Source: a virus. From it: a DNA stretch of 28,690 nucleotides. This document shows, piece by piece, positions 3,192 through 25,575 of this stretch (position 1 is its first letter; the number at the start of each line of letters is the position of its first letter). The notes under the pieces are model-generated. The model was not told the origin of the DNA. It was given only the letters and a program-made list of their open reading frames with translations, and did not search any database. The translations under genes and the position numbers were made by a program. The DNA lies in IMG/VR virus record IMGVR_UViG_3300025697_000114, positions 1-28,690 of that record; one strand, given 5' to 3'.

Positions 3192-4409
3192 ATGGCTACA
3201 GCAACATCAGGAACAGCGGTATCAGGATTAGCGGCAGGTGGTGGGATTGTCACAGCTCCAACATTTGAGCCGATTACACTCGCGTCCTTGAAATTACATT
3301 TGCGCCTCGATTCTGGGTCATTTTCAGATAACATAAACGAACCTCAGAGCATCCCCCCGGGCAGCCACGCGATCACGACTACCTATGATCATTATGGCAC
3401 AGGTGTTGATGTCCTTGGCAAAACTGCCGTTGTCTATCTTCAATCCGGTACGAACTTAGCGACAGGAACGGTAAATGTAAAAATTCAGGAAGCGGACACG
3501 AACACTGAAACATTAACCCTCGATGTAGCACCGGCAACCGATTGGGCCGCTGATAACATTATTACAGGGCAGACGAGCAAAACAACTTGCGTATGTGTGG
3601 CAAAGGTCAGTGCCTTAGTCTATACGGTTAAGAACAGATCGGGGGTGTTTACCCTGGGGGAAATTATAGGTGTTACAGGAACTGCCGTAAAGCTTGCCGA
3701 TCAGGGGGCCGCAAATCCCATTTTCTCAGGCTCGGTTTACACTGACTGGACTGGTGGAGCTTTTACGCAAGTTACTACCAGTAATGACAATGCTACTCAG
3801 GAGATAGCCTATACTGGCACCAAACAATATGTCAGGACGGTTGCCAAGGTATTGCTGGCGGCTTGTGAGTTTGGGACTACGGTTGTCTGCTTAACGGCAA
3901 CATCTATTGAAGATGATTTGCTGAATTCGATTATTACAGCGGCCAGGGAGCATATTGAGGATATTACTAGACGTCAAATTATTACGGCTACATGGGATTA
4001 CTTTCTTGATAATTTCCCAGATACGAATTATATTAAATTACCTTATGGTAACTTGCAATCGGTGTCATATATAAAGTATACTGATTCTGATGGTACACAG
4101 ACGACAATGACTGTAACGACTGATTATCTGGTTGAGCAGAACGGCGAGTATTATGGCCGGATAGTATTACCTTATGGAGAAAGCTGGCCCTCTTTTACAG
4201 CTTACCCGACTCAGCCGATAGTTATACGATATGTTGCTGGTTGGACTACCAGGGCTTTGGTGCCATATAAAATTAAAGCGGCCATGCTTTTGATATGTGC
4301 TAATTTATATGTCAACAGAGAGGGGCAAGTTTTGAGTAATATGGATTATCGAGAGAATAAGGCGGTGATGGGGTTGTTGTCAAGTGCAAGACTTTGGAGT
4401 GAATTCTAA
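3192..4409 (+). CDS. Head-tail connector (gp6-like) with inserted domains
   Basis: A 405-residue protein. Residues 28-44 (PITLASLKLHLRLDSGSF) and 239-405 (IEDDLLNSIITAAREHIEDI, then ITATWDYFLDNFP, KLPYGNLQSV and Y.AGW near the end) form the pattern of the HK97 gp6/phiE125 gp8-type connector that docks on the portal ring. That family is usually 100-200 residues. Here about 190 residues (roughly 45-236) interrupt the first helix-turn. The insert includes VDVLGKTAVVYLQSG, KIQEADTN, WTGGAFTQVT and TGTKQYVRTVAKV, which resemble stand-alone phage decoration domains. A second segment with ITGQTSKTT and GVFTLGEIIGVTG is nested inside it. The gene overlaps the following adaptor by one base. Connector identity is strong; the insert's role is inferred. 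Confidence 0.8.
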   Translation: MATATSGTAVSGLAAGGGIVTAPTFEPITLASLKLHLRLDSGSFSDNINEPQSIPPGSHAITTTYDHYGTGVDVLGKTAVVYLQSGTNLATGTVNVKIQEADTNTETLTLDVAPATDWAADNIITGQTSKTTCVCVAKVSALVYTVKNRSGVFTLGEIIGVTGTAVKLADQGAANPIFSGSVYTDWTGGAFTQVTTSNDNATQEIAYTGTKQYVRTVAKVLLAACEFGTTVVCLTATSIEDDLLNSIITAAREHIEDITRRQIITATWDYFLDNFPDTNYIKLPYGNLQSVSYIKYTDSDGTQTTMTVTTDYLVEQNGEYYGRIVLPYGESWPSFTAYPTQPIVIRYVAGWTTRALVPYKIKAAMLLICANLYVNREGQVLSNMDYRENKAVMGLLSSARLWSEF

Positions 4410-4723
4410 TGATCGGTGATCTCAATAAACGCATAACCATCCAATATCCGACAAGGGTAAGTGATGGGATGGGAAATTTTACTGAAACTTGGAATGATTC
4501 TGATACAATTTTTGCAGCTATTTGGCCAGTGTCAGCAAAAGAACAAATTCAGTCTATGCAGAATGTTATGGAAATTACACATAGAATCCGTATTCGGTAT
4601 AGGAGCGTTTTAAGACCTGATTGGAGATTGAAATTCGGTACTCGTTATTTTGCAATATTGAGCGTGATCAATCAAAATGAACGGAATGAATGGTTGGACT
4701 TGTTATGTAAGGAGGCCGTGTGA
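4409..4723 (+). CDS. Head-tail adaptor (SPP1 gp16-like)
   Basis: A 104-residue protein with the classic phage head-tail joining pattern. It opens with IGDLNKRITIQYPT, continues through DGMGNFTETWNDSDTIFAAIWPVSA, and includes a HRIRIRYRSVL strand and a FAILSVINQNERNEWLDLLCKEA ending. This matches in order and length the PF05521 family, which plugs or seals the head channel below the connector ring. Its ATG overlaps the last base of the connector gene, and its stop overlaps the GTG of the tail-completion gene. That gives the standard connector, adaptor, completion order of siphoviruses. No anomalies are seen. Confidence 0.88.
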   Translation: MIGDLNKRITIQYPTRVSDGMGNFTETWNDSDTIFAAIWPVSAKEQIQSMQNVMEITHRIRIRYRSVLRPDWRLKFGTRYFAILSVINQNERNEWLDLLCKEAV

Positions 4724-5130
4724 AAGCATTAACTACAGCCATATACAGCCAGCTTGCAGGATCAGCTCTATCAACTGCCGTTGGGGGAAAAATGTTTAAA
4801 GGCCGGGCTCCTGATGGAACATCTTTCCCTTACGTCATATTTTTTGTAGTTACAGATATGCCGGATCGCACATTTACAGAAGATTACGAAAATGTTATTA
4901 TTCAATTCTCTCTTTTCTCAACGGCATCCGGTACAACTGAGATTGAGGATATGTTCACACATTTAAAAACTTTATATGATGAAAAACCATTTACGATAAC
5001 CGGATCAACTTTGGTGTGGATGCGGAGATCAAATACATCGTTCTTAGTGGAAGACCACACTACGCCAACCGGAACTCAGCAAGTTTGGCATTATGCCGTT
5101 GATTTTGAAGTACTTACTAGCTTAGATTAG
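4720..5130 (+). CDS. Tail completion/terminator protein (gp17-like)
   Basis: A 136-residue protein starting at GTG, four bases overlapping the adaptor stop (GTGA), with AGGAGG just upstream. The pattern ALTTAIYSQLAGSALSTAVGG, then FPYVIFF, then a strand pair II QFSLFS, the helix IEDMFTHLKTLYDE and a final AVDFEVLTS fits the DUF3168/gp17-like tail-completion family, which caps the upper end of the tail tube and joins it to the head. Length matches the family. In many phages an HK97 gp10-like gene precedes it; here that gene is displaced to 9859. The stop is TAG. A ten-base gap leads to the sugar-enzyme island. Confidence 0.82.
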   Translation: MKALTTAIYSQLAGSALSTAVGGKMFKGRAPDGTSFPYVIFFVVTDMPDRTFTEDYENVIIQFSLFSTASGTTEIEDMFTHLKTLYDEKPFTITGSTLVWMRRSNTSFLVEDHTTPTGTQQVWHYAVDFEVLTSLD

Positions 5131-5139
5131 GGAGATTAA

Positions 5140-6405
5140 ATGCTATCTATCATCGTCCCAATTTATAATCGTCAAGAGATGTCTTATGACTGCATAAGCG
5201 CAGTTATGGAGAATACCGAACCAGGCACGTATGAGATAATAGTGGTGGACAATGGAAGCGATCCAGAATTCAAACCTCCATTTAGCGGATTCAATGAACT
5301 TAAAGTTATAAAAAATAGTAGCAATCTAGGTTTCCCTGTGGCAGTGAACCGTGGTATTCGTGAGGCATCAGGCGACATAATTATACTATTAAATAACGAT
5401 GTTACTGTAACTACTTCGTGGGCAGAACATTTAGTTAATCACCTTAATGAATACGCTATTGTCGCACCTATAACCAATTATGCCGCAGGGATTCAGAATG
5501 TAATTGTAGAATCATATAATAATATTGATGAGCTTAACGAAGTAGCCGAGGCTGTCTATGAAGGGAATGAGGGCGAATCTGAGAACGTCAATTTTGTTAT
5601 TGGATTTGTGATGGCCTTCAAAAAATCCCTTTATGATGAGATTGGAGAATTTGACGAATCCCTTTGGCCATGTAGTGGCGAGGAAGTAGATTTCTGTTTA
5701 GAAGCTGTCAAGGCAGGTTACAAGGTAGGTGTCGCTTATGATGTGTATGTTCACCACTTGGGATCACAGACGTTAAGCGATATGATAGATGCTGATGAAA
5801 TTGATTATAAGGAATTGTGCGACCGTAACGACAAGCACCTTGCCGAAAAATGGGGTGATGATTTCTTTGATAATCAATTAAGATATAATAAAACTCGGAT
5901 ATTAGGGGAAGATGCTATTCGTCTGAATTTAGGGTGTGGCAATTTTCCGATGAAAGGATTTGTTAATGTCGATCAAATTAAGGAAGTAAAACCTGATCTT
6001 TTGGCAGATGCAACGGACTTGCCTTATGAAGACGATACGGTGGATGAGATATATTGTGGCCATATGCTTGAACATCTTACATGGGATGAAGGCCAGGGGG
6101 CTTTAAAGCACTGGTTATCCATTCTAAAGAAAGGCGGTGAGGTTCGGATAGTTGTGCCTGACTTTGATGCATTGGCAAAAAAATATATTGAGAATCCAAC
6201 GACAACAGCCATGAAATATATGAACGATTATTTTATATATTCCTATGTGCAGGATTCTCCGCATAAGTATTTTTACAGTGGGGGGCTTTTAAAGGAAGCA
6301 ATGGAGATGGCAGGGTTTAAAAAGGTTGTTAGGTTGCCGGTTGATCATCCATACTTTTTTGAGAATGTTGGTTGGCAGGTGGGTTTTGTGGGGGTGAAGG
6401 TATGA
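5140..6405 (+). CDS. Fused GT2 glycosyltransferase and SAM methyltransferase
   Basis: A 421-residue bifunctional protein. Residues 1-230 are a GT-A fold family 2 glycosyltransferase: LSIIVPIYNR at the start, VVDNGSD (35-41), a nucleotide-sugar/metal loop LLNNDV (83-88), an acid motif GEEVDF (180-185) and HH (205-206). Residues 263-421 are a class I SAM methyltransferase with motif I LNLGCGNFP, acidic residues VDQ and ADATDLPY, the helix CGHMLEHLTWDEG and LKKGGEVRIVVPDFD. Such a fusion would add a sugar and methylate it or a linked residue. It opens a four-gene accessory block inside the tail operon (ribosome binding site GGGAGA). The substrate is unknown: virion protein glycan, host glycan or nucleotide are all possible. 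The enzyme-family assignment is firm. Confidence 0.85.
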   Translation: MLSIIVPIYNRQEMSYDCISAVMENTEPGTYEIIVVDNGSDPEFKPPFSGFNELKVIKNSSNLGFPVAVNRGIREASGDIIILLNNDVTVTTSWAEHLVNHLNEYAIVAPITNYAAGIQNVIVESYNNIDELNEVAEAVYEGNEGESENVNFVIGFVMAFKKSLYDEIGEFDESLWPCSGEEVDFCLEAVKAGYKVGVAYDVYVHHLGSQTLSDMIDADEIDYKELCDRNDKHLAEKWGDDFFDNQLRYNKTRILGEDAIRLNLGCGNFPMKGFVNVDQIKEVKPDLLADATDLPYEDDTVDEIYCGHMLEHLTWDEGQGALKHWLSILKKGGEVRIVVPDFDALAKKYIENPTTTAMKYMNDYFIYSYVQDSPHKYFYSGGLLKEAMEMAGFKKVVRLPVDHPYFFENVGWQVGFVGVKV

Positions 6406-6560
6406 CAGTAAAAGAATTGATAGAGAAATTAAAGGAATGTGAACAAAGCGTTGAAGTTTGTATGTTAATCGATATGTTTGATGAAGTACTTGGTGTAACA
6501 AGAGAATCAATTAGTGTCGACGAAATTCAAGAAGAAGAAGGTAGGGTTTACATAAAATGA
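6402..6560 (+). CDS. Small acidic phage protein
   Basis: A 52-residue protein beginning at ATG 6402, which overlaps the upstream stop (ATGA) and has GGGGGTGAAGG just before it. An in-frame ATG at 6372 would add ten Gly-rich residues and lies within the previous gene, so it is not preferred. The pattern TVKELIEKLKECEQSVEVCM, then ISVDEIQEEEGRVYIK, resembles, from recall, small phage and bacterial proteins of unknown function that describe a helix followed by a beta-hairpin. Its stop overlaps the next ATG, so it is translationally coupled to both sugar enzymes. Confidence 0.6.
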   Translation: MTVKELIEKLKECEQSVEVCMLIDMFDEVLGVTRESISVDEIQEEEGRVYIK

Positions 6561-7717
6561 ATTGCCGAGTTTGTTCTACAGAATGTAAGAAGTTCTTAGA
6601 CCTTGGGTGGCAGCCTATCGCTAACAATTTCTTAACTCATGAGCAACTTGCAAATGAATTCTTTTATCATCTAAAAGTTTATTTTTGTCCTGTCTGCCTC
6701 ACTGTTCAGATTGGCGAGTGTCCAGATAGTTCGCAGGTGTTCAATAAGGACTATGCTTTTTTCACTGGGACATCGGAAAAAATGAGGGAGCATTTTGCAC
6801 ATTTAGCAGACTTGATTAAAGAAAGCTACATGCCCGAGAATGGTTGTATTATGGAAATAGGCAGCAATGATGGCACTTTTCTTGAGCATTTTAAGGACAA
6901 TGTTCATCTTGGCTTTGATCCCTCAGACAGTGTTAATAAAGTAGCAATGACAAAAGGGGTCCGGGTTTATCCTTATCCCTTCGAAGATTTTGGAGATGCA
7001 TCAACGGCATGGCCCAAGACTGATGTATTTGTGTCTTGCAATGCCTTTGCTCACATTCCAGATAGAAAGGGTGTACTCAGTGGCATTAAGAAGATGCTCG
7101 CTCCTAATGGCGTATGGATAGACGAAGAGCCATACATGGGAAACATAATCAACAACCTGGAGTATGACCAATTCTACAATGAGCATGTTTTCTATACATC
7201 CATTGCTTCGATGCAGAAGACCTTGGCTATGTTCGATCTTGAGATAAAGGATTTTGAGTTCATATGGACACACTGTGGTTCTATCCGGTATTTTGTGGGG
7301 CATAGGAATCCGGGGTTACGCCAAAAGGTTTCAGACGCAATAAAAAACGAGGGACTTGATAATTTTGAAATATTTGAGGCTTTCGGCAAAAAAGTTAAAG
7401 GCCAAATAGATAGATTCAAAAAAAGACTATTTGCTATGGAAGGGCCTCTTGTGGGCTACGCGGCATCGGCTAAAAGCACAACTCTTTTAAATTGCTGTAA
7501 AATTGGCCCGGATATCATAGAGAAAATTTACGACACAACGCCAGCGAAACAAGGCAAGCTGTCACCTGGGATGCATATACCAATCGTGTCTTATGATCAA
7601 TTCAAAAAAGACAATCCTTCAGATGTGGTTCTGTTTGCCTGTAACCATGCTAAGGAGATTTTTGCAAAAGAACGTGAAATGAAAATTAACTGGATTTTAC
7701 CACACGGGAGTTTGTAA
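6557..7717 (+). CDS. Sugar C-methyltransferase (TylCIII/NovU-like)
   Basis: A 386-residue three-domain enzyme. Residues 1-60 form a zinc-binding head with C3, C6, C44 and C47 (CRVC and CPVC). Residues about 75-240 are a SAM-binding domain with motif MEIGSNDGTFLEHF (99-112), the acidic FDPSD and a post-motif CNAFAHI. Residues about 280-386 carry the C-terminal domain with VGYAASAKSTTLLN, YDTTPAKQGKLSPG and HIPIVS. This order is that of the Methyltransf_13/11/14 family, which C-methylates NDP-deoxysugars on 4-keto intermediates. That would supply a branched, methylated sugar donor to the neighbouring glycosyltransferases. No dehydratase or epimerase for the donor is visible here, so a host precursor would be needed. 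Confidence 0.85.
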   Translation: MNCRVCSTECKKFLDLGWQPIANNFLTHEQLANEFFYHLKVYFCPVCLTVQIGECPDSSQVFNKDYAFFTGTSEKMREHFAHLADLIKESYMPENGCIMEIGSNDGTFLEHFKDNVHLGFDPSDSVNKVAMTKGVRVYPYPFEDFGDASTAWPKTDVFVSCNAFAHIPDRKGVLSGIKKMLAPNGVWIDEEPYMGNIINNLEYDQFYNEHVFYTSIASMQKTLAMFDLEIKDFEFIWTHCGSIRYFVGHRNPGLRQKVSDAIKNEGLDNFEIFEAFGKKVKGQIDRFKKRLFAMEGPLVGYAASAKSTTLLNCCKIGPDIIEKIYDTTPAKQGKLSPGMHIPIVSYDQFKKDNPSDVVLFACNHAKEIFAKEREMKINWILPHGSL

Positions 7718-7720
7718 ACA

Positions 7721-8416
7721 ATGCGCATATCTAACGCACACCTTGCCATAGGAATTCCATTAACTTTTCCTTGGGTTCCTTCGAGTTTCTTTCATTCCTT
7801 TATCCAAATGGAGAGACCAGATTTCACTTATATTTATGAGGATTCAACTGGGCCAATTCATGCACTGAGAAATAGTATTGTAGAAAAAGCTTTACAGGCT
7901 AGAGCTACAAAACTTTTAATGTGCGATATTGATCAAGTATATCACCCCAAAACAATTACTAAACTTTTGTCGCACAGATTACCCATTGTGGGCGCATTAG
8001 TTCACAGAAGATATCCTCCGTTCGATAGTCTAATGATGAAACAAGTGGCAATAAATGAGATGACAAATGGCTATAAAAGCATTGATGAATGGGAAGAAGA
8101 CGAGCTTGTGGAAGTTGACGCAACCGGAGCAGGATGTATCATGTATGATATGGATGTATTCAGAAAGATGCCTTCGCCGTGGTATAAGACACAAACAGGT
8201 CCAGATGGTTCTCCTGTAGGTGAGGACTTTGGATTTTGCCAGGACTTGAAGAAAGCAGGATATAAAATATTCGTTGATACTTCAGTACCAGCGGGACATC
8301 TGGCAACGATGGTAATAAATGCAGCAACAAGTAGACTATACAGATCAATGAAAACAGCGCAACAAAAAAAGGCCGCTGATATGGCATTGGGGGTTGATAA
8401 TAAAAAAATAGCTTAA
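7721..8416 (+). CDS. Phage GT-A fold glycosyltransferase
   Basis: A 231-residue protein. It has a nucleotide-sugar/metal DxD motif in LLMCDIDQVYHP (D69, D71), then IVGALVHRRYPP, a donor-site strand VDATGAGCIMYDMDVFRKM (132-150), the acidic GEDFGFCQDLKKAGYKIFVD (167-186) and a conserved-looking AGHL with H193. This is the layout of a compact GT-A glycosyltransferase common in phage genomes. There is no signal peptide or membrane segment, so it should act in the cytoplasm. It follows the C-methyltransferase after three bases and closes the sugar-enzyme island, which a terminator follows at 8476-8519. The acceptor is unknown. Confidence 0.75.
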   Translation: MRISNAHLAIGIPLTFPWVPSSFFHSFIQMERPDFTYIYEDSTGPIHALRNSIVEKALQARATKLLMCDIDQVYHPKTITKLLSHRLPIVGALVHRRYPPFDSLMMKQVAINEMTNGYKSIDEWEEDELVEVDATGAGCIMYDMDVFRKMPSPWYKTQTGPDGSPVGEDFGFCQDLKKAGYKIFVDTSVPAGHLATMVINAATSRLYRSMKTAQQKKAADMALGVDNKKIA

Positions 8417-8431
8417 TTTTACAACCAGGGT

Positions 8432-8462
8432 TTCTGCGAGGACTGGCCAAGTCTAAGCAGAA
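8432..8462 (+). other. Stem-loop upstream of tail-tube gene
   Basis: TTCTGC (8432-8437) pairs with GCAGAA (8457-8462). Inside, GACT (8441-8444) pairs with AGTC (8450-8453), with a 3x3 internal loop and a five-base terminal loop. It lies between the last sugar-enzyme gene and a terminator and belongs to no ORF. It could be an RNA-processing site or a small structured RNA. Confidence 0.45.
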
Positions 8463-8475
8463 CGCAAGAACATTG

Positions 8476-8519
8476 AAGCGGTTTGTAGGAGCCTACACTC
8501 TTACATTTCCGCTTTTTTT
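8476..8519 (+). terminator. Rho-independent terminator after sugar-enzyme island
   Basis: AAGCGG (8476-8481) pairs with CCGCTT (8509-8514), with an inner TGTA/TACA pairing and the T-run 8513-8519. It would end or attenuate transcription coming through the island just before the abundant tail-tube gene. This implies a separate promoter for that gene in the 50 bases that follow, but I could not identify convincing -35 and -10 boxes. Confidence 0.65.
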
Positions 8520-8568
8520 GTTGCCCTGAATTAACATAAAAATCATTTAACTTTTAGGAGGTACAAAA

Positions 8569-9015
8569 ATGGCTGATCGAGCTTCTACACTTAGCGGAAT
8601 GTTTCAAAAGGTGACTTTGGGATTAACTTCAAAGGTTTTGGGTGCTGGGACTTATACCCTTTCAGGGGTAACTCGTACATTGGCTGAGGCTTCAGAATTT
8701 GGAGTTGAAACCAACATTTATGAGTTTGGATGCGCCGATGGTGGGACAATCTCTTTATCGGATGTGAGTTATGATCCTGCATGTCCAGAACAGCTTACTT
8801 TGCAGGGATGTGTTGAGGATGGCACAAAACTGGTTGGCAATTCCTGTTCAGGACTTTGTTTTTGGATTAATTCAACCACTTATCTTAGGTGCGCAACCAC
8901 TGGACATATCTTAATGACTAAAGCTGGTGGTGTTAAGGCTGACCGATGTGGTTTGGCTAAGACTGATTTTGAGGGCCAGGTATCTGGTGGATTCATGGTA
9001 TTGTGTACAAAATAA
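8569..9015 (+). CDS. Probable major tail (tube) protein
   Basis: A 148-residue protein with a strong TTAGGAGG ribosome binding site. I infer the tail-tube role mainly from position: after the head-tail completion genes, directly before the paired chaperone ORFs with a frameshift site, and behind its own terminator and leader, as expected for a highly expressed gene. The body alternates short beta strands, and the end (KTDFEGQVSGGFMVLCTK) would suit a tube subunit. It carries eight cysteines, which is many for a cytoplasmically assembled tube protein and could mean inter-subunit disulfides or metal binding in the mature tail. No enzymatic motif is seen. A minor tail or capsid protein is the alternative. 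Confidence 0.6.
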   Translation: MADRASTLSGMFQKVTLGLTSKVLGAGTYTLSGVTRTLAEASEFGVETNIYEFGCADGGTISLSDVSYDPACPEQLTLQGCVEDGTKLVGNSCSGLCFWINSTTYLRCATTGHILMTKAGGVKADRCGLAKTDFEGQVSGGFMVLCTK

Positions 9016-10248: not shown

Positions 10249-10395
10249 GTGAATCCTATAGCTAAAAAGTTGATAATATTAAAGATATTGCTTGATTATC
10301 AATTCGCTATGTGGTATAAAATAATGAAGGTAGAACAAGCGGCTAACTTATTCTACCTCCTAACCATTTACCCATCTATAAAGGAGATGAGTGCC
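10249..10395 (+). pseudogene. Possible interrupted small gene, in frame with the HNH gene
   Basis: A GTG at 10249, with GGAG 11 bases upstream, opens a frame of 49 codons that runs directly into the HNH ORF. The translation (KKLIILKILLDYQFAMWYKI, then VEQAANLFYLLTIYP) looks like a coherent hydrophobic-helical protein, unlike the basic zinc-ribbon protein that follows. A second short frame, 11166-11219, lies beyond the HNH gene. One reading is that the HNH element inserted into, or next to, a small gene between the chaperones and the tape measure. Whether the fusion product of 301 residues is made is unknown. Confidence 0.3.
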
Positions 10396-11154
10396 ATGGC
10401 TGAATCTATATTAACAAAAACATGTTCTAAATGCAATATTGTTAAATCCGAAGATGATTTTAACAAGAGATCAGCCGCCGAAGACGGACTATGCCCCAGG
10501 TGTAGAGGTTGCTGTAAGGAATATTATCAATCTCATAAGAAAGAAATTTTGGACCAAAAAAGACAATATTACTCCGATAATAAAGATGAAGTATTGGTAA
10601 AAGCAAAACAATATTATGAGAATAATAAAGAAGAAAAAAGAACGTATGCAAAGCGATATCATAAAAAAAATGCTAACAAAATAAAAGCATATCTAAAGCA
10701 ATATTATGCTGACAATAATGAAGAAGCAAAATCTAAAGCAAAGCAATATTATAGGGACAACGCAGAAGAAAAAAAAGCATACGCGAAACAATATCGAGAG
10801 GATAACAAAGCATATTTTACTGAATATAATAGGATATATTCTAAAAGCCCAAATGGAAAAGCAGCCGACAAAAAGAAACGTCATCAACGCCGTGCTCAAA
10901 AAATGGGTGCACATTGTGATAACTTCAATCCAGACGAAGTCTTTGAACGTGATGGATATCGTTGTCAACTCTGTGGCAAAAAGACAAGACCTGATTACAA
11001 TAGATTCCATCCTTTGTTCCCAAACTTAGATCATATTGTTCCCTTAAGTAAGGGTGGAAATCATACCAAAAGGAATACCCAATGTTTGTGCCATCAGTGT
11101 AATTCAACGAAATATAATACCGGAGTTGGGAATCAATTCAGGTTATTTGGATAA
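10396..11154 (+). CDS. HNH homing endonuclease with zinc ribbon and coiled repeats
   Basis: A 252-residue protein from ATG 10396, with AAGGAG nine bases upstream. Residues about 1-45 hold a zinc ribbon (TCSKC, then CPRCRGCC). Residues 45-150 are a highly charged helical region built of irregular repeats around KQYY.DN.EE and AKQY. Residues about 190-245 carry the HNH nuclease: CQLCGKK, LDHIVPLSKGG and CHQCNSTKY. Such free-standing endonucleases spread by nicking or cutting intron-less or gene-junction sites. The gene is lysine- and adenine-rich, unlike its neighbours, consistent with recent acquisition. It sits between the neck-type gene and the tape measure and is probably not a virion component. 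Confidence 0.85.
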   Translation: MAESILTKTCSKCNIVKSEDDFNKRSAAEDGLCPRCRGCCKEYYQSHKKEILDQKRQYYSDNKDEVLVKAKQYYENNKEEKRTYAKRYHKKNANKIKAYLKQYYADNNEEAKSKAKQYYRDNAEEKKAYAKQYREDNKAYFTEYNRIYSKSPNGKAADKKKRHQRRAQKMGAHCDNFNPDEVFERDGYRCQLCGKKTRPDYNRFHPLFPNLDHIVPLSKGGNHTKRNTQCLCHQCNSTKYNTGVGNQFRLFG

Positions 11155-11211
11155 GGATGGACCATATGTTTTATATTGCCAAGAATACACGTATTATTGA
11201 GGAAAATTATC

Positions 11212-14200
11212 GTGGCTAGTCATTCTATCGGCAAGATATTTGTGGAATTGGACTTAGATGCGGACAGGTACACTAAGGGTCAGCAACGCCTTCTTAAAGA
11301 TGCCAAACAAACAAGTTTATCTATAGAAGAAAATTTCCGGAAACTTCAGATAAAGTCCTCTGCTCAATTCAATCTAATGCGACAAAAAGCAATCAATGCC
11401 AATAACATGATTGCTAATAGTGCCAAGGCTACTGCTAATGATCGTGTTCGAGCCGAAAGAGCTATGACCAAAAAACTTTCAAGGCTCAATGATCAACAAT
11501 ACGGACATCAAGTTTCAACATTCGATAAGCTTAAAAAACATTGGCAGGCGTATTCAGTTGCTGCAATCGGAGCAATATATTCTATCTCTCGGGCTATGAC
11601 CAAAAGTTTGGAGGAGTTCAAGAACTATGAGACTGCACTAATAGATATGGCCAAGGTAACAGACCAATCGTTCGGGGTAATGGATGACAAAATAATGAGT
11701 TTAAACAGTAATCTTGGCGATTCCACAGATTTAATGAAAGGATATTATCAGGTTATATCAGCGGGCGTGACTGAACCAAAGGCGGCTCTTGAATTATTGA
11801 TAACGGCTGCAAAGGCATCAAAGGCAGCACACCTAGACCAATCAGAGGTTATTAAGGCACTAACTAAAGTGATGAGAGGATTCGCTGGCGAAATTAAATC
11901 AACTGAAGAAGCGGCTGATTTACTGTTTACCACTGAGAAATTAGGTCAGACCACAGTTGCGGAGCTTGTACCAATTATAGGTGACATGGCGAAGATATCT
12001 AAGGAAGTGGGAATTTCTCATACTGAAATGGCCGCAGCGTTAGCACTTATAACTCAAACAGCAGGTAGTACATCAAATGCAGCCACACAATATAGAGGTG
12101 TTCTTCTTGGTTTACTTAGACCCAACGAGAAATTAACCGAATTAGTTACTAAGTATGGTTATGAATCTGGCGTCGCTATGGTTAAATCATTAGGCTTTTC
12201 CAGGTCATTAAATTTAATAAAAAGGGGCGCGGCTGATGCCAGTATCCAAATCGGTAAATTGTTCAGATCGTCAGAGGGTATGCTTGGTCTTGCATCTTTA
12301 AGTGAAAGCGATTTTGAACGATATAATGAATTGATTGTGGAAATGGGGGAGGGTGCCGGTAGTAGCGCGGAAGCCTTTGACAGATTTTTAGAATCAGCTC
12401 AAGCCGTTGATGATGAGCTTGAGACTAATTTTAAGCGATTGTTAATAGAGATTGGCGAATATGCCGATCCTTTTGCCAAAGCGATTAAGACTATGATGTC
12501 TGATGCGTTGGGATCATTAGCCGCAGGCATTGATAAGGTAGACAAAGATACGCCAATAGCGTTGTTACATTTGGCCATCCTTTTAGAAAACTTAAAGACT
12601 CGTTTTGGGGAAAATGCTAAAGCAACAGGTGAATGGACTCAGATAATAGATGCTTCTGGAGAGAAAGTTTGGATACTAACAGAATATGTTGAAGCTTATA
12701 ACGCTTCTTTAGAAGCAAACAAAAAAGCAAACGAAGACGTCCTAACTGTGGATGCAAAAAGACTGGCCGCAATAGAGGAACATTATAAGGCCACCATGAA
12801 GCAGGTAAAGGCTGAAGAAAAATTAAGCGAATCACAGTTACAGACATATGAAAGTTTAGAGAAATTCCTTGAACTCAATAGCCAGATTGATGATCAGGCC
12901 AAGGCGGTTGTCAGTCTAGATCAGCAGTACGCCAAAATAGAAGCCAAACTAAAGGCCCTTGAGCTTGCCGGTTATGATGTAGCCGAAATGTGGGTTAACC
13001 TGGAGAAATGGCACGCCAATAGTATGGATGAGATTGTCAACAAGACTGAGGATGCCACTGCTTCCTTTGATGATATCATGAAAGATATAGGTGGTTTGGA
13101 TTTCAAAGGAACTTCTTTTGGAAACGAGCTAGCTGATGGTATTAATAATGCTATGATTTCCATACAGAGCTTGAATACCTTGTTTGAGAAACATGCGAAA
13201 ATTCAAGGGGATATTAATAAACTAATAGAAGAAGGCAAGGAAGAAGAAGCAGCGAAAGCGCAAATAGCTCTTGATGATAGTTATTTCCAAGCTCAGATTT
13301 CCGGTTATCGGCAGCTCTTTGGTACTGTATCCCAGTTATTTGATGAAAACTCAAAAGAAAGGGAGGCTTTACATAAGATAGAGATGGGATTCGCTGTTAT
13401 GGAAATGGCAATGACCGCTAAAAAAATGGTGATGGAAACTGCGGCTATGATTTCATCCGTGGCTAATTCATCAACAGTAATCGCTGGTAAAGCAGGAGAG
13501 GCAGTTGCGGGTGCTGTAGTGGGCGTAACAAATCAAGGCACAGGTGATCCCTATACCGCATTTGGCAGAATAGCAGCTATGATTGCCCTAATGGGCAGTG
13601 TTTTAGCAATGGGTGGTATTGCTTTTGGTGGTGGAGGTGGTGGAGGCTCAGGAGGATCAGAAGCAGCAACAACTGGAACTGTTTTAGGAGATCCAACTAA
13701 ATCAAGTGAATCAATGCAAAAGTCTTTAGATATGGCAGAGGATTGGCATATAGAAGAGTATACTGAGCTAATTGGTATTCACAATGAGTTGATAGATTTG
13801 AATAAGAATATTACAGGAATTGTTTCTAATATAGTTAGGAACTTCGGTGACTTTGACCAGGATACATTTAAACTTGAGGGACTCGGAGATTGGGGCAAGG
13901 CCAACGAAAAGTTTATGGAGTTGAATGAAAAAATCATAGATAAGTTGGATTTGGGAGGATTTGCCAAGGGAGATATGTTGACTGTTGGCCTTAGTAGATT
14001 TATGGGTGATATAGCAGGTAAATTGGGGAATAAGATATTTGGTGGCGAAGTAAAGATAAAAGGTGCTGGAATTGTACTTGGGCGTGAATTTGCCGCAACT
14101 GTTGGTGATGTTTTAGAAGGTGTATATCCAAGTGTTGAAGAATATGCTGACTGGAAAAAGGACGGTGGGTGGTTTCATGATGACAAAAAAGGCACAAAAT

Positions 14201-17200
14201 ATGGGCCTGTCGATGCAGAAATAGAAAGATTATTTGATAAAATTTACGGAAACATAATCAACATGCTTGTATATTTGGCGGAAGGATTTGACTACTCTGC
14301 TGAACAAATGTCCGAAGTATTAGCTTATGAATTTGCAAATGTAAAGTTAGATTTAAAAGGGTTATCTGGAGAGGAAATAACCAAAAAGATAAGCGCATGG
14401 ATCTCCACTATGGGAGATACCGCCGTAGAAGCGCTCTTCTCAGAAGTCGTTGGTAAATATCAAGAAGTTGATGAAGGTATGCTGGAAACGGCAATGCGCT
14501 TGGTTATGCAAAAAGAGATCCTTCTCAGTGCTTTAGAAATGACCGGACAAGGATTTGACGCTACTTCTGGATCAGCAATAGATTTTAGTCAAGACATGAT
14601 AGCCTTGAGCAAAGATTTTGAAACATTGATGGATGACATATCCAATTATTATGATAAATTCTTTTCAGAAGAAGAGCAATTTGCTGACTTGACAGAAGGT
14701 TTAACTTCTAAACTTGCACTTCAAAATATGGAGTTACCAAAAACTAGGGATGGTTATAGAGACTTAGTCGAGGGATTAAAAAAAGGAACCGAAGCCGAAA
14801 ACAAAAGAGCAATAGCATTAATGGAGAATGCAGATGCAGCGGATGCTTACTATGACTATCTTGAAGATATTAATGACGAACTAAACTCAGTCTATGACAC
14901 TGCTATAATGGCAGATATGAATGATTATGAGGCAGCTTTATATGAAATAAATCAAAAGTATATTGACCTTGCATCGCAATTAAGTATCGCAAATCTCTTA
15001 TTCGACGAACAAGGAAAATTGACTGAACTTGGTGCGAAAGCTTTAGGAGCATATAATCTTGAGATTCAAGGACTTACTAAATCGGTTGAGGATTCAATAA
15101 ATTCCATGTTGGATACTGTATTTGAAGACATAGCTATGGAAGGCTTGACTGAATATGAGCAACAGCTTTATCGCATAAATGAAAAATACAAGGATATAGC
15201 TCAACAGTTAATTGACGCAAATCTGCTTTATGATGAACAAGGCAACTTAACCGATATAGCAACAAGAGCAATAGGAGCATATAATATCGAGATTCAAGGA
15301 CTTACTGAATCTGTTGAGGATTCAATAAATTCTATGTTGGACGCTGTATTTGAAGACATAGCTATGGAAGGCTTGACTGAATATGAGCAACAGCTTTATC
15401 GCATAAATGAAAAATACAAGGATATAGCTCAACAGTTAATTGACGCAAATCTGCTTTATGATGAACAAGGTAATTTAACCGATATAGCAACAAGAGCAAT
15501 AGGAGCCTATAATCTTGAGATCCAAAGACTTGCCAATGTTATTTTAGACACCATCGATCAAACAAAAAGACAACTATCTACTATGGGTATGGATTCCAAC
15601 AAAGCGGGTATGTTAGATATCGCTGCTCGTTACGGAATAGCACCTTCTGCGGTACAAAGTGGTGCACAGGATATCCTTAATTGGTACATGAATGCCAGTT
15701 CCACACAAATAGCAGGAATTTTAGCTACGTATGGTGTTTCAATAGACCAATTTAATGCTGATATGATAACACTTGGGAACTCTCTGATGACGCAAGGACA
15801 GGAGCATCATCAAGAAGCGCAAGCAAAGCGTGATGAAGCGCAAACAAAGCGCAATGAAATGATTAATTCCCTTGATAGTGCAATCGACGGTATTGATTCA
15901 ATGTTAGCCGATTTAAGTCCAACCGGATCACTTGCCCCTGTTCAAAGTGCAGAAGCATTCCAACTTAAATATGATGAATTAATTGATAAAATAAGGACTT
16001 CAGATGACCCAGGAAAATATGTTTCCGAGCTTCAATCTTTCTTGCCAGATTATTTAAGTTTTTCAGAAGCATTTGGCGGGGATTATAAAGATTTAGTTGC
16101 CGGAGTCCAAGAAGATTTAGAAGGGCTTAATGTAGAATTTAAAACTGAACGAGATTACTTAAAAGAAATTGCAGGTTCTACAGGAAATACAGCTGCGGGT
16201 ATCACAGAGCTTCTTGGTATGGGCATACCAATTACATTTAATACCGCAGGTCTCGGCGAGAACGCAGTGACTTTCCTTCAAGGACTACAAGAAATAGTCA
16301 GCTTGGTTGGTTGGAATAGCCCTTTTACAATAGACTTCGTTTCTAATTATTCTGGGTTTGCTACGATGCCGTTCCTTGATTTTGTAAATGTAGTAGATCA
16401 GATAGCCGCACAGGTTCCTGGTGGATGGCATGCTCAACTAACTATGGACACGATAATGTCTTTTGAGAATTGGGATGACACATCAATAGAGGAGAGGCTT
16501 GCAACTTGGGAATTTATAAAGGGCACCTATGGATGGCATTCCACAGTAACATTCGAGTTTATTGCAGACATGGTTGATTCTGTAGACGGACTTAGTTGGG
16601 AAGATATAATGACTATTCTTCCAGACGATGTAACCAAAAAAGAAATGCTTATATGGCTCAATAATAATACCGGGATGACTCCATCTCAATTAGCTAGTAT
16701 TTTCGGGTCAGATTTTACGGCCGATATGCATTTAAGTGCTGATCTAATCTGGCCGGAGGGCGGTTTCCTAGATGTTTTAGTTGGAGCACCAGTAACGATT
16801 GCTAAGTTCGGCAATACGAATGCAGATACTTGGACAAGTCAGATTCATTTTGGTTTGGTTGAAATATGGTGGGTATTAAAGGATATTGCGGCCAATGATG
16901 TTTTAGTTGGAGTACCAGTAACGATTGCTAAGTTTGGCAATACGAATGCAGATACTTGGACAAATGTAATCCATCTTGGTTTGGTTGAAATATGGAAGGT
17001 ATTAAAGGATATTGAGGCCAATGATGTTTTAGTTGGAGTACCAGTAACGATTGCTAAGTTTGGCAATACGAATGCAGATACTTGGACAAGTCAGATTCAT
17101 TTTGGTTTGGTTGAAATATGGTGGGTATTAAAGGATATCGAGCGTAATACAAGTAATCTTAATAGAGCTTTTGATATCCCAGGCTACGCTGCTGGCGGAT

Positions 17201-17475
17201 TAACAAGCGGACTCAGCTTTGCTGGTGAAAAGGGAGCAGAATATATCGTACCGACATATGAACCAGAAAGATCTTCTTTCTTACAAAGCGTTGGTGCCGA
17301 TCCAGAGGCAATAGGGAAATCAGTTGCAAAGTATATTATGCGTTCTGGCATGGGTGGGGAAAAAGAAGTTCATATCCATCTTGAGATTGACGGGCAAGAG
17401 ATTAGAAACCCAGTTATCATGGGACTACAGGGACGTGACGCAGATTTGATTGACGCGGTAAGGAAGGCAGCATAA
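11212..17475 (+). CDS. Tail tape measure protein
   Basis: Length is 2087 residues from GTG 11212, preceded by GAGG at a suitable distance; an in-frame TTG at 11176 lacks a site. Residues about 128-305 match the TP901-type tape-measure core (KNYETALIDMAKVTDQ, then ALELLITAAKASKAAHLD, LFTTEKLGQTTVAELVPIIG and EMAAALALITQTAGSTSNAATQYRG). Long helical stretches follow, then a hydrophobic segment (about 777-803) with a run of glycines. Two sets of internal repeats follow, 76-residue units (1229-1438) and 42-residue units (1854-1979), before an end containing FAGEKGAEYIVPT. The protein sets tail length and may reach the host membrane. It overlaps the next gene as TAATG. Confidence 0.93.
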   Translation: MASHSIGKIFVELDLDADRYTKGQQRLLKDAKQTSLSIEENFRKLQIKSSAQFNLMRQKAINANNMIANSAKATANDRVRAERAMTKKLSRLNDQQYGHQVSTFDKLKKHWQAYSVAAIGAIYSISRAMTKSLEEFKNYETALIDMAKVTDQSFGVMDDKIMSLNSNLGDSTDLMKGYYQVISAGVTEPKAALELLITAAKASKAAHLDQSEVIKALTKVMRGFAGEIKSTEEAADLLFTTEKLGQTTVAELVPIIGDMAKISKEVGISHTEMAAALALITQTAGSTSNAATQYRGVLLGLLRPNEKLTELVTKYGYESGVAMVKSLGFSRSLNLIKRGAADASIQIGKLFRSSEGMLGLASLSESDFERYNELIVEMGEGAGSSAEAFDRFLESAQAVDDELETNFKRLLIEIGEYADPFAKAIKTMMSDALGSLAAGIDKVDKDTPIALLHLAILLENLKTRFGENAKATGEWTQIIDASGEKVWILTEYVEAYNASLEANKKANEDVLTVDAKRLAAIEEHYKATMKQVKAEEKLSESQLQTYESLEKFLELNSQIDDQAKAVVSLDQQYAKIEAKLKALELAGYDVAEMWVNLEKWHANSMDEIVNKTEDATASFDDIMKDIGGLDFKGTSFGNELADGINNAMISIQSLNTLFEKHAKIQGDINKLIEEGKEEEAAKAQIALDDSYFQAQISGYRQLFGTVSQLFDENSKEREALHKIEMGFAVMEMAMTAKKMVMETAAMISSVANSSTVIAGKAGEAVAGAVVGVTNQGTGDPYTAFGRIAAMIALMGSVLAMGGIAFGGGGGGGSGGSEAATTGTVLGDPTKSSESMQKSLDMAEDWHIEEYTELIGIHNELIDLNKNITGIVSNIVRNFGDFDQDTFKLEGLGDWGKANEKFMELNEKIIDKLDLGGFAKGDMLTVGLSRFMGDIAGKLGNKIFGGEVKIKGAGIVLGREFAATVGDVLEGVYPSVEEYADWKKDGGWFHDDKKGTKYGPVDAEIERLFDKIYGNIINMLVYLAEGFDYSAEQMSEVLAYEFANVKLDLKGLSGEEITKKISAWISTMGDTAVEALFSEVVGKYQEVDEGMLETAMRLVMQKEILLSALEMTGQGFDATSGSAIDFSQDMIALSKDFETLMDDISNYYDKFFSEEEQFADLTEGLTSKLALQNMELPKTRDGYRDLVEGLKKGTEAENKRAIALMENADAADAYYDYLEDINDELNSVYDTAIMADMNDYEAALYEINQKYIDLASQLSIANLLFDEQGKLTELGAKALGAYNLEIQGLTKSVEDSINSMLDTVFEDIAMEGLTEYEQQLYRINEKYKDIAQQLIDANLLYDEQGNLTDIATRAIGAYNIEIQGLTESVEDSINSMLDAVFEDIAMEGLTEYEQQLYRINEKYKDIAQQLIDANLLYDEQGNLTDIATRAIGAYNLEIQRLANVILDTIDQTKRQLSTMGMDSNKAGMLDIAARYGIAPSAVQSGAQDILNWYMNASSTQIAGILATYGVSIDQFNADMITLGNSLMTQGQEHHQEAQAKRDEAQTKRNEMINSLDSAIDGIDSMLADLSPTGSLAPVQSAEAFQLKYDELIDKIRTSDDPGKYVSELQSFLPDYLSFSEAFGGDYKDLVAGVQEDLEGLNVEFKTERDYLKEIAGSTGNTAAGITELLGMGIPITFNTAGLGENAVTFLQGLQEIVSLVGWNSPFTIDFVSNYSGFATMPFLDFVNVVDQIAAQVPGGWHAQLTMDTIMSFENWDDTSIEERLATWEFIKGTYGWHSTVTFEFIADMVDSVDGLSWEDIMTILPDDVTKKEMLIWLNNNTGMTPSQLASIFGSDFTADMHLSADLIWPEGGFLDVLVGAPVTIAKFGNTNADTWTSQIHFGLVEIWWVLKDIAANDVLVGVPVTIAKFGNTNADTWTNVIHLGLVEIWKVLKDIEANDVLVGVPVTIAKFGNTNADTWTSQIHFGLVEIWWVLKDIERNTSNLNRAFDIPGYAAGGLTSGLSFAGEKGAEYIVPTYEPERSSFLQSVGADPEAIGKSVAKYIMRSGMGGEKEVHIHLEIDGQEIRNPVIMGLQGRDADLIDAVRKAA
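14896..15530 (+). repeat. Three 228-bp (76-residue) tandem repeats in tape measure
   Basis: Units begin at 14896 (diverged), 15124 and 15352. The last two are almost identical in DNA (e.g. GTTGAGGATTCAATAAA recurs at 15085 and 15313), so this is a recent duplication. The unit reads EDIAMEGLTEYEQQLYRINE, then LLYDEQGNLTDIA, then SVEDSINSML. The third copy is partial. Confidence 0.85.
16771..17148 (+). repeat. Three 126-bp (42-residue) tandem repeats in tape measure
   Basis: Units start at 16771, 16897 and 17023, each encoding DVLVG.PVTIAKFGNTNADT followed by W..LVEIW.VLKDI. They are nearly identical in DNA, and copies 1 and 3 share SQIHF where copy 2 has NVIHL, which suggests recombination between units. 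The unit is beta-like, unlike the helical body, and lies near the distal C-terminus. Confidence 0.85.
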
Positions 17476-24858: not shown

Positions 24859-25575
24859 TCATAGACCAATTGTCTCACAGAAAATCCCGCATTCATCAAC
24901 TATAGGAGGGGCATGTCTACCACGTTCAGGGTCAAGTTCGTCAAGGAATACACCTTTAATGCAAGTAGCTTTAATCTTGCGCTCCATCTTTGCCCTTGCT
25001 TCAAATACTTCAGGGAAGTCTACACGAATATGATTCCAATAACCCATACCGCCATTAACGCACCCAACACAATTATTATTATGGTATCCGAGGTCATACA
25101 TTTTAGGACGTTTGATACCGCTTGCATTTAGAATCTCATGGGCGTGTTTCTTCGTGATTCCATGTTTAATCAACGGTGCAACATGGTCATATTCTGGCAT
25201 AGTTGTGAAAAGCCTATCTAATCTCTCTTGCTCGTTAGAATCCATTCCCCAAATATACCTTAATTCGTCAACCTGATCTTTCTCCCAGTCGGCTCGCACT
25301 TTCTTTTTCAGAAATTTGGTACACGCTGCACCAGATGGACCATTGATATAACCTCTACCACCAGACGAATAGCATGCGTTTTCCACAGTTTCATGGATTG
25401 ATCGCAATATCTCGATAGGCTTACCGAGCCATAATTCACAATCTTTAACAAACCGCAGCGTGTCTCTGTGCTGGTCATCTATGTGGATGTAAAATATTTG
25501 ATCAATTTCGGATATACTCATCTTTGCTGCAACAGCACTTGACACCCATGCACTAAACCACATTACTGTTTTCAT
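24859..25575 (-). CDS. PAPS-reductase-family protein with altered PP-loop
   Basis: A 238-residue protein; AAAGGA precedes the ATG. It belongs to the PAPS reductase/adenine nucleotide alpha-hydrolase group: the N-terminal loop FSAWVSSAVAAK (7-18) stands where relatives carry an S-[GA]-G-x-x-S loop binding ATP or PAPS. IYIHIDDQHRDT-like residues follow (YIHIDDQH, 29-36), and a C-terminal cluster has HNNNCVGC (166-172), GYW and C229/C233. Residue 10 is Trp, coded TGG, where Gly (GGG, one base away) would be expected. Phage members are proposed to act in sulfur chemistry on nucleic acids or nucleotides, but the substrate is unknown. The Trp could abolish or change nucleotide binding. Confidence 0.7.
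   Translation of the reverse strand: MKTVMWFSAWVSSAVAAKMSISEIDQIFYIHIDDQHRDTLRFVKDCELWLGKPIEILRSIHETVENACYSSGGRGYINGPSGAACTKFLKKKVRADWEKDQVDELRYIWGMDSNEQERLDRLFTTMPEYDHVAPLIKHGITKKHAHEILNASGIKRPKMYDLGYHNNNCVGCVNGGMGYWNHIRVDFPEVFEARAKMERKIKATCIKGVFLDELDPERGRHAPPIVDECGIFCETIGL

Follow-up and report, generated by a model that had tools for sequence, protein, structure and literature searches.

What does a block of sugar-modifying genes do within the tail operon of a phage, and which molecule receives the sugar? The question is raised by positions 5140-8416 of the IMG/VR virus record IMGVR_UViG_3300025697_000114, which we analysed at its full length of 28,690 bases (the window is the entire record). 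The initial annotation had described in this place a translationally coupled block of late genes with a plausible virion target, closed by its own terminator. From the enzyme families, the gene order in relatives and the co-variation of one glycosyltransferase with the adjacent tail tube gene, we propose that the cassette probably glycosylates the phage's own tail tube. The genes concerned, which are named below by their first position, are as follows.

4720-5130, plus strand: tail terminator, the left border of the slot (PF11367, 9.9e-12; phrog_176, 4.6e-11)
5140-6405, plus strand: GT2 glycosyltransferase (about residues 1-215) fused to a class I S-adenosylmethionine (SAM) methyltransferase (about residues 255-421), assigned by Pfam
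6402-6560, plus strand: open reading frame (ORF) of 52 residues, bridging 5140 and 6557 via ATGA overlaps (weak match to phrog_5861, E=0.002)
6557-7717, plus strand: sugar C-methyltransferase of the TcaB9/mycarose 3-C-methyltransferase family, an optional cassette gene (Pfam and TcaB9 match)
7721-8416, plus strand: GT-A glycosyltransferase, a conserved core gene almost always beside the tube gene (fold, invariant residues, synteny and co-variation)
8569-9015, plus strand: major tail (tube) protein, the proposed sugar acceptor (family-level profile matches)

Enzymes of the sugar cassette

The two glycosyltransferases, the methyltransferase domain and the sugar C-methyltransferase were found in the reading frames first described (5140-6405, 6557-7717 and 7721-8416), and the Pfam and fold assignments agreed with them. 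The enzyme content of the block was thus confirmed, but the 52-residue ORF had been missed. The block lies between tail-completion and tail-tube genes as described, with the tail terminator 4720 on the left and the tube gene 8569 on the right. Nine nucleotides separate the tail terminator from 5140, the frames overlap by ATGA at 6402-6405 and 6557-6560, and a 3-nucleotide gap precedes 7721. Because of these overlaps and the short gap, translational coupling across the sugar block is plausible.

Gene 5140 matched Glycos_transf_2 (PF00535, 1.5e-23) and Methyltransf_11 (PF08241, 2.6e-7), and its NND and VHH motifs were conserved in 9 relatives. Gene 6557 matched Methyltransf_13, Methyltransf_23 and Methyltransf_14 (1.3e-29), which is the C-methyltransferase architecture; the full-length protein contains a Methyltransf_13 zinc domain with conserved zinc cysteines, a SAM domain and a Methyltransf_14 domain. 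The profile match of 6557 to the sugar 3-C-methyltransferase TcaB9 ran end to end (E=7e-87), and residues Y66, H166, Y207, E209 and H210 aligned with Y76, H181, Y222, E224 and H225 of TcaB9, its catalytic residues. While 6557 shares the three-part architecture and the catalytic positions with the TcaB9, TylC3 and NovU C-methyltransferases, it lies in a phage tail operon, and a PF16363 search found no accompanying deoxysugar pathway.

Gene 7721 gave weaker matches by sequence (Anp1 in Pfam, 1.3e-3; phrog_1574, 2.5e-14). Its AlphaFold2 model, with a predicted local distance difference test (pLDDT) score of 69, matched GT-A glycosyltransferases, with COLGALT1 as the best (6e-8) and further matches to STIV A197, LH3, Mnn9 and GalNAc-T2. 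The GT-A fold and the DxD motif, both shared with phrog_1574 and with COLGALT1, LH3, GalNAc-T2 and STIV A197, are present in 7721, and D69-x-D71, E168-D169 and H193 were invariant in 36 relatives. However, sequence identity to the GT-A enzymes is about 15% or less, and the acceptor cannot be read from the fold. Several of the fold relatives act on proteins, but because the glycolipid enzyme B4GALNT1 is also listed among the matches, the fold leaves the acceptor of 7721 undecided.

The GT2 domain of 5140 also weakly matched the GtrB-like phrog_841 (4e-8), as would suit enzymes that alter the host cell surface for receptor masking or superinfection exclusion, in the manner of O-antigen conversion modules. 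Methylated and C-methyl sugars are typical of O-antigens and exopolysaccharides. Such a role appears improbable: a methyltransferase, and not a membrane segment, follows the GT2 domain, the slot in the window has no flippase or membrane gene, and the cassette is strictly linked to the tube gene and co-varies with it (see below). The serotype-converting gtrABC modules are alike in carrying a GT2-type enzyme in a phage; the slot described here contains no flippase GtrA or membrane bactoprenol glycosyltransferase and is tied to the tail tube.

A conserved slot before the tail tube gene

Viral contigs were scanned with the second glycosyltransferase as anchor and, independently, with the tube as anchor, and the two scans agreed. 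They gave 82 distinct tube genes, of which 80 had upstream sequence and form the denominator here; the loci, designated by L numbers, extend only about 6 kb on each side. A gene matching the 7721 profile (a broad family, as the iterated profile also picks up other GT-A domains in long fused proteins) lay directly 5' of the tube gene in 75/80 loci. An HNH gene lay between the two in 3/80 loci, and in 2/80 (L107 and L124) the place before the tube was occupied by other proteins, GT-A or GT-B glycosyltransferase-like by eye. Hidden Markov models of glycan families hit these loci 159 times, 158 of them between the tail terminator and the tube. A PF00535 search of 17 complete records, the longest of 137 kb, found 17 places in 16 records; those places that were compared with the slot coordinates fit the slot, except for one located far away on the 137-kb record.

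The search for the same block beside tail genes, suggested with the first description, showed it to lie in the tail operon of every relative scored, and not only among early or DNA-modification genes, an outcome in favour of the first interpretation. This bears on whether the block glycosylates phage DNA bases, since phage glycosyltransferases can hypermodify DNA (Pyle 2024, as cited in PMC12619734). The confinement of the block to the tail operon makes this reading most improbable. It was rejected, as PF00303, the thymidylate-synthase/hydroxymethylase family, occurred in 0/20 related records, many of which are fragments.

A GT2 gene was present between terminator and tube in nearly all relatives. 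The variable slot genes included Methyltransf_24/rhamnosyl O-methyltransferase-like, Methyltransf_11/23, GT4, extra GT2 and radical SAM-SPASM genes, and the C-methyltransferase, present in the window, was shared by a minority of relatives (L002-L006, L010, L022, L128 and copies). As judged from these comparisons, the conserved part of the slot is the second glycosyltransferase (7721) together with a GT2, and the C-methyltransferase is optional. With the enzyme limited to a minority of relatives, the methyl-branched sugar suggested earlier is predicted to be an optional decoration. The 7721 family also recurs in virion modules elsewhere: a 25%-identical homologue in the unrelated circular phage MW202711 has the major capsid gene on one side and tail tubular protein A on the other.

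In a close relative, L003, a radical SAM-SPASM gene (4608-5267) lies within the slot beside an extra GT2. HNH endonuclease genes were often found in or beside the slot (L031, L032, L035, L037, L042, L049, L053 and L090) and may explain the turnover of its genes.

Co-variation of the glycosyltransferase and the tail tube

Nine genes are shared by 33 loci; their matrices of pairwise identity were compared, giving 36 gene pairs. The 7721-tube pair was at the top of the 36 (r=0.72; partial 0.63 given the other genes; Mantel 0/5000), followed by adaptor-Hc1 (0.49) and tube-9513 (0.46), while the GT2 was more weakly related to the tube (0.41, partial 0.25). Adjacency by itself did not produce such values in other neighbouring pairs (Hc1-terminator, 0.33; tube-9028, 0.27). 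Both by position and by partial correlation, the glycosyltransferase is linked specifically to one virion protein.

It could nevertheless be argued that the enzymes glycosylate some other virion protein, such as the capsid, the decoration proteins 46 or 594, or a tail tip or fibre, and that their placement reflects operon timing. A late-operon position suits any virion protein, the distant 7721 homologue in MW202711 adjoins the major capsid gene, and in mycobacteriophages the capsid is known to be glycosylated as well (PMC12619734 and PMC12363180). We consider this rather unlikely, as 7721 co-varies far more strongly with the tube than with any other gene, and weakly with the adaptor and head-closure genes, and the adjacency of 7721 and the tube is near invariant. 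The proposal of late genes with a virion target is still the best reading, but the evidence is more specific to the tube 8569 than to 46, 594 or 2589, which had also been named as candidate targets.

The 8569 protein of the window itself had no direct family match in the Pfam or PHROGs searches. Among 33 relatives of 8569, 8 matched phrog_158 'major tail protein' (best 2.1e-11), 3 matched phrog_10528, and 2 matched the tail tube family PF16460 (1.9e-6); several of the highest-probability fold matches of the 8569 model were tube proteins. Via its family members rather than the window copy, 8569 is assigned as the major tail (tube) protein. The window protein has 8 cysteines where aligned relatives mostly carry other residues, and disulfides, metal binding or S-linked modification are possible roles for them. 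In four loci (L040, L090, L093 and L121), the glycosyltransferase is directly followed by a tandem pair of tail-tube paralogues.

Proposed glycosylation of the tail tube

For the acceptor, the order of action and the identity of the sugar, we infer the following scheme. The GT-A enzyme 7721 would attach the first sugar to the major tail protein from the next gene (8569), and the GT2 domain of 5140 would extend it. The methyltransferase domain of 5140 and the 6557 enzyme would methylate the sugar or its activated precursor, with the activated sugars being supplied by the host. Because PF16363 is absent from the window, the C-methyltransferase would have to draw on a 4-keto sugar of the host. 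The product would be a methylated glycan, perhaps branched by a 3-C-methyl group, that repeats along the tail. Consistent with a glycan, the variants found in the slot are of sugar-tailoring types, and the phage-encoded glycosyltransferases are located with virion genes, as expected of a virion-glycosylation system.

Several points weigh against the proposed tube glycosylation. The window yielded no gene of a nucleotide-sugar pathway, PF16363 being the only family searched specifically there; PF16363 was also absent from 16/17 records, and a nucleoside diphosphate (NDP)-4-keto-6-deoxysugar pathway near 6557 was not found. The AlphaFold2 model of the tube is modest (pLDDT 66), and its fold matches are insignificant by themselves. 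Tight linkage alone, with the genes transferred together as a unit, could yield the synteny and part of the co-variation. Proteins combining GT2 and methyltransferase domains also build cell-surface polysaccharides.

In the mycobacteriophages Che8, Corndog and Myrna, phage glycosyltransferases are reported to put glycans on capsid and tail-tube subunits (Freeman 2023, as cited in PMC12619734 and PMC12363180). The system described here is alike in its phage-encoded glycosyltransferases, with the tail tube among the targets reported there. It differs in that the genes of a whole lineage of uncultured phages occupy one fixed slot immediately ahead of the tube gene, and in its swappable sugar methyltransferases, which include the 3-C-methyltransferase type. 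We found no description of a slot before the tube gene in the literature.

A structured RNA between the cassette and the tube gene

The interval between the cassette and the tube gene contains one further feature:

8424-8530, plus strand: structured RNA with a three-way junction, earlier called a terminator (folding and covariation)

The terminator ascribed to the block is a real stem with a T-run (T7; z=-5.6), but it belongs to a larger conserved RNA that also occurs before head genes elsewhere. Positions 8417-8568 fold far better than shuffled sequences, and the 107-nucleotide core (8424-8530) reaches z=-6.6. The element consists of P1 (CAGGG/CCCTG), P2 with a GGCCA loop, a ACGCAAGA joiner, and P3 with the T-run and two competing helices. 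The same fold was found between glycosyltransferase and tube in L003, L004, L006, L022, L036, L052, L061, L070, L107, L122 and L126, and the L052 element, which was outside the training set, was matched at E=2e-15.

In viral contigs, a search with a degenerate pattern yielded 82 stretches, some of them probably chance; only the 72 covariance-model matches, nearly all full length (E 1e-8 to 1e-22), were counted. The structure was measured on alignments made with the covariance model, as MAFFT had misplaced part of the RNA. For 66 distinct sequences, 95% of cells were paired and 22/25 pairs had both-side (compensatory) changes; the covariation score was 0.80 versus 0.07-0.15 for slid controls, the safeguard against the lean of such alignments towards the model. 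Strand a (ending GGUG) is complementary to both strand b (CC...) and strand c (CAUC...). The a:b helix is paired in 99% of cells, and the a:c helix has 8.4 pairs on average versus 4.6 with shuffled c; the two helices are mutually exclusive.

A GC-rich stem followed by T7 would also fit an intrinsic terminator of the ordinary kind, at which the sugar transcript stops, the tube gene having a separate promoter, and the P3 stem with its U-run indeed looks terminator-like. However, P1 pairs across the T-run, and compensatory changes preserve P1, P2 and both of the competing P3 helices, which argues that the read-through RNA is under selection. Since the element also precedes head genes in other phages, we regard an ordinary terminator as quite unlikely. 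The covarying three-way junction with competing helices sets the element apart from intrinsic terminators and from the phage leader RNAs of Rfam. For 8424-8530, Rfam 15 contained no family at or near its gathering threshold and none above chance, and no description of the element was found in the literature.

About 80 phage or prophage contigs carry the element ahead of virion genes (tube, major head, scaffold, protease and portal), with one or two copies per genome and a plausible start codon at a median of 36 nucleotides after it. With PHROG names taken from one representative per sequence cluster, the downstream genes encoded major tail proteins (14), head scaffolding proteins (phrog_206, 12; phrog_8865, 2) and major head proteins (phrog_10, 8; phrog_371, 4; and phrog_1005). 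Others encoded a head maturation protease, a head-tail adaptor or portal, the terminase large subunit or a tail terminator, and some were unassigned. The element also occurred in 5/46 genomes of the class and 7/395 of the phylum of a Syntrophorhabdus metagenome-assembled genome (MAG), where examples precede genes that by sequence resemblance are prohead-protease-like and scaffold-like. Loci with the element include L173, L212, L235 and L241, along with some 70 others.

Because unrelated proteins follow the element, autoregulation by the product is unlikely, and we infer that it acts commonly on transcription read-through, processing or stability. In the window, the RNA would be a separate leader of the tube gene, probably setting how strongly the abundant tube protein is expressed compared with the upstream genes, with partial termination, processing or stabilisation as candidate means. 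We lean, by a little, towards an unreported family of tailed-phage regulatory RNAs that would stand before abundant virion genes in unrelated phages and prophages as a shared late-gene switch, and would here stand between a co-evolving, tube-specific glycosylation cassette and the gene of its substrate.

Genome context and host

The gene order from 3192 is head-tail adaptor, head closure Hc1, tail terminator, sugar block and 8569, followed by 9028, 9513, 9859, an HNH gene, the tape measure gene, more tail genes and an endolysin-type gene. The morphogenesis genes around the slot are as follows.

3192-4409, plus strand: head-tail adaptor, upstream morphogenesis gene (Pfam/PHROGs matches)
4409-4723, plus strand: head closure Hc1, upstream morphogenesis gene (Pfam/PHROGs matches)
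11176-17475, plus strand: tape measure protein, a downstream tail gene fixing the operon context (phrog_7740, 1.5e-35)

The 50,697 phage records of INPHARED contained no near relative of the window at the DNA level and no homologue of the tube protein 8569 by tblastn; the cassette proteins had only distant homologues there. The sole hint of a host is L153 (MVQP01000108.1), in which the same operon lies on a 10-kb contig binned to the Syntrophorhabdus MAG. This contig makes Syntrophorhabdus a possible host of the window phage, and the actinobacteriophage context invoked at first was not borne out.

The HNH endonuclease gene of the window is located at 10249-11154. A PAPS-reductase family gene (phrog_424, 1.1e-38) lies at 24859-25575 on the minus strand, opposite the late operon. 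In L044, a fragment at 3-317, upstream of the head-tail genes, resembles by eye an O-antigen ligase/polymerase membrane protein.

Significance of the cassette and its boundary RNA

To our knowledge, chemical proof of phage virion glycosylation comes mainly from a few mycobacteriophages. The near-invariant pair of a glycosyltransferase followed by the tail tube in about 80 uncultured phages singles out the likely acceptor, which can be tested with two purified proteins, while the slot offers a natural series of sugar-tailoring variants in one place. The boundary RNA is the more novel part of this locus. If it is confirmed as regulatory, the element would be a widely shared means, absent from Rfam 15, of controlling how phage structural genes are expressed, and it could be used for finding virion genes in metagenomes.

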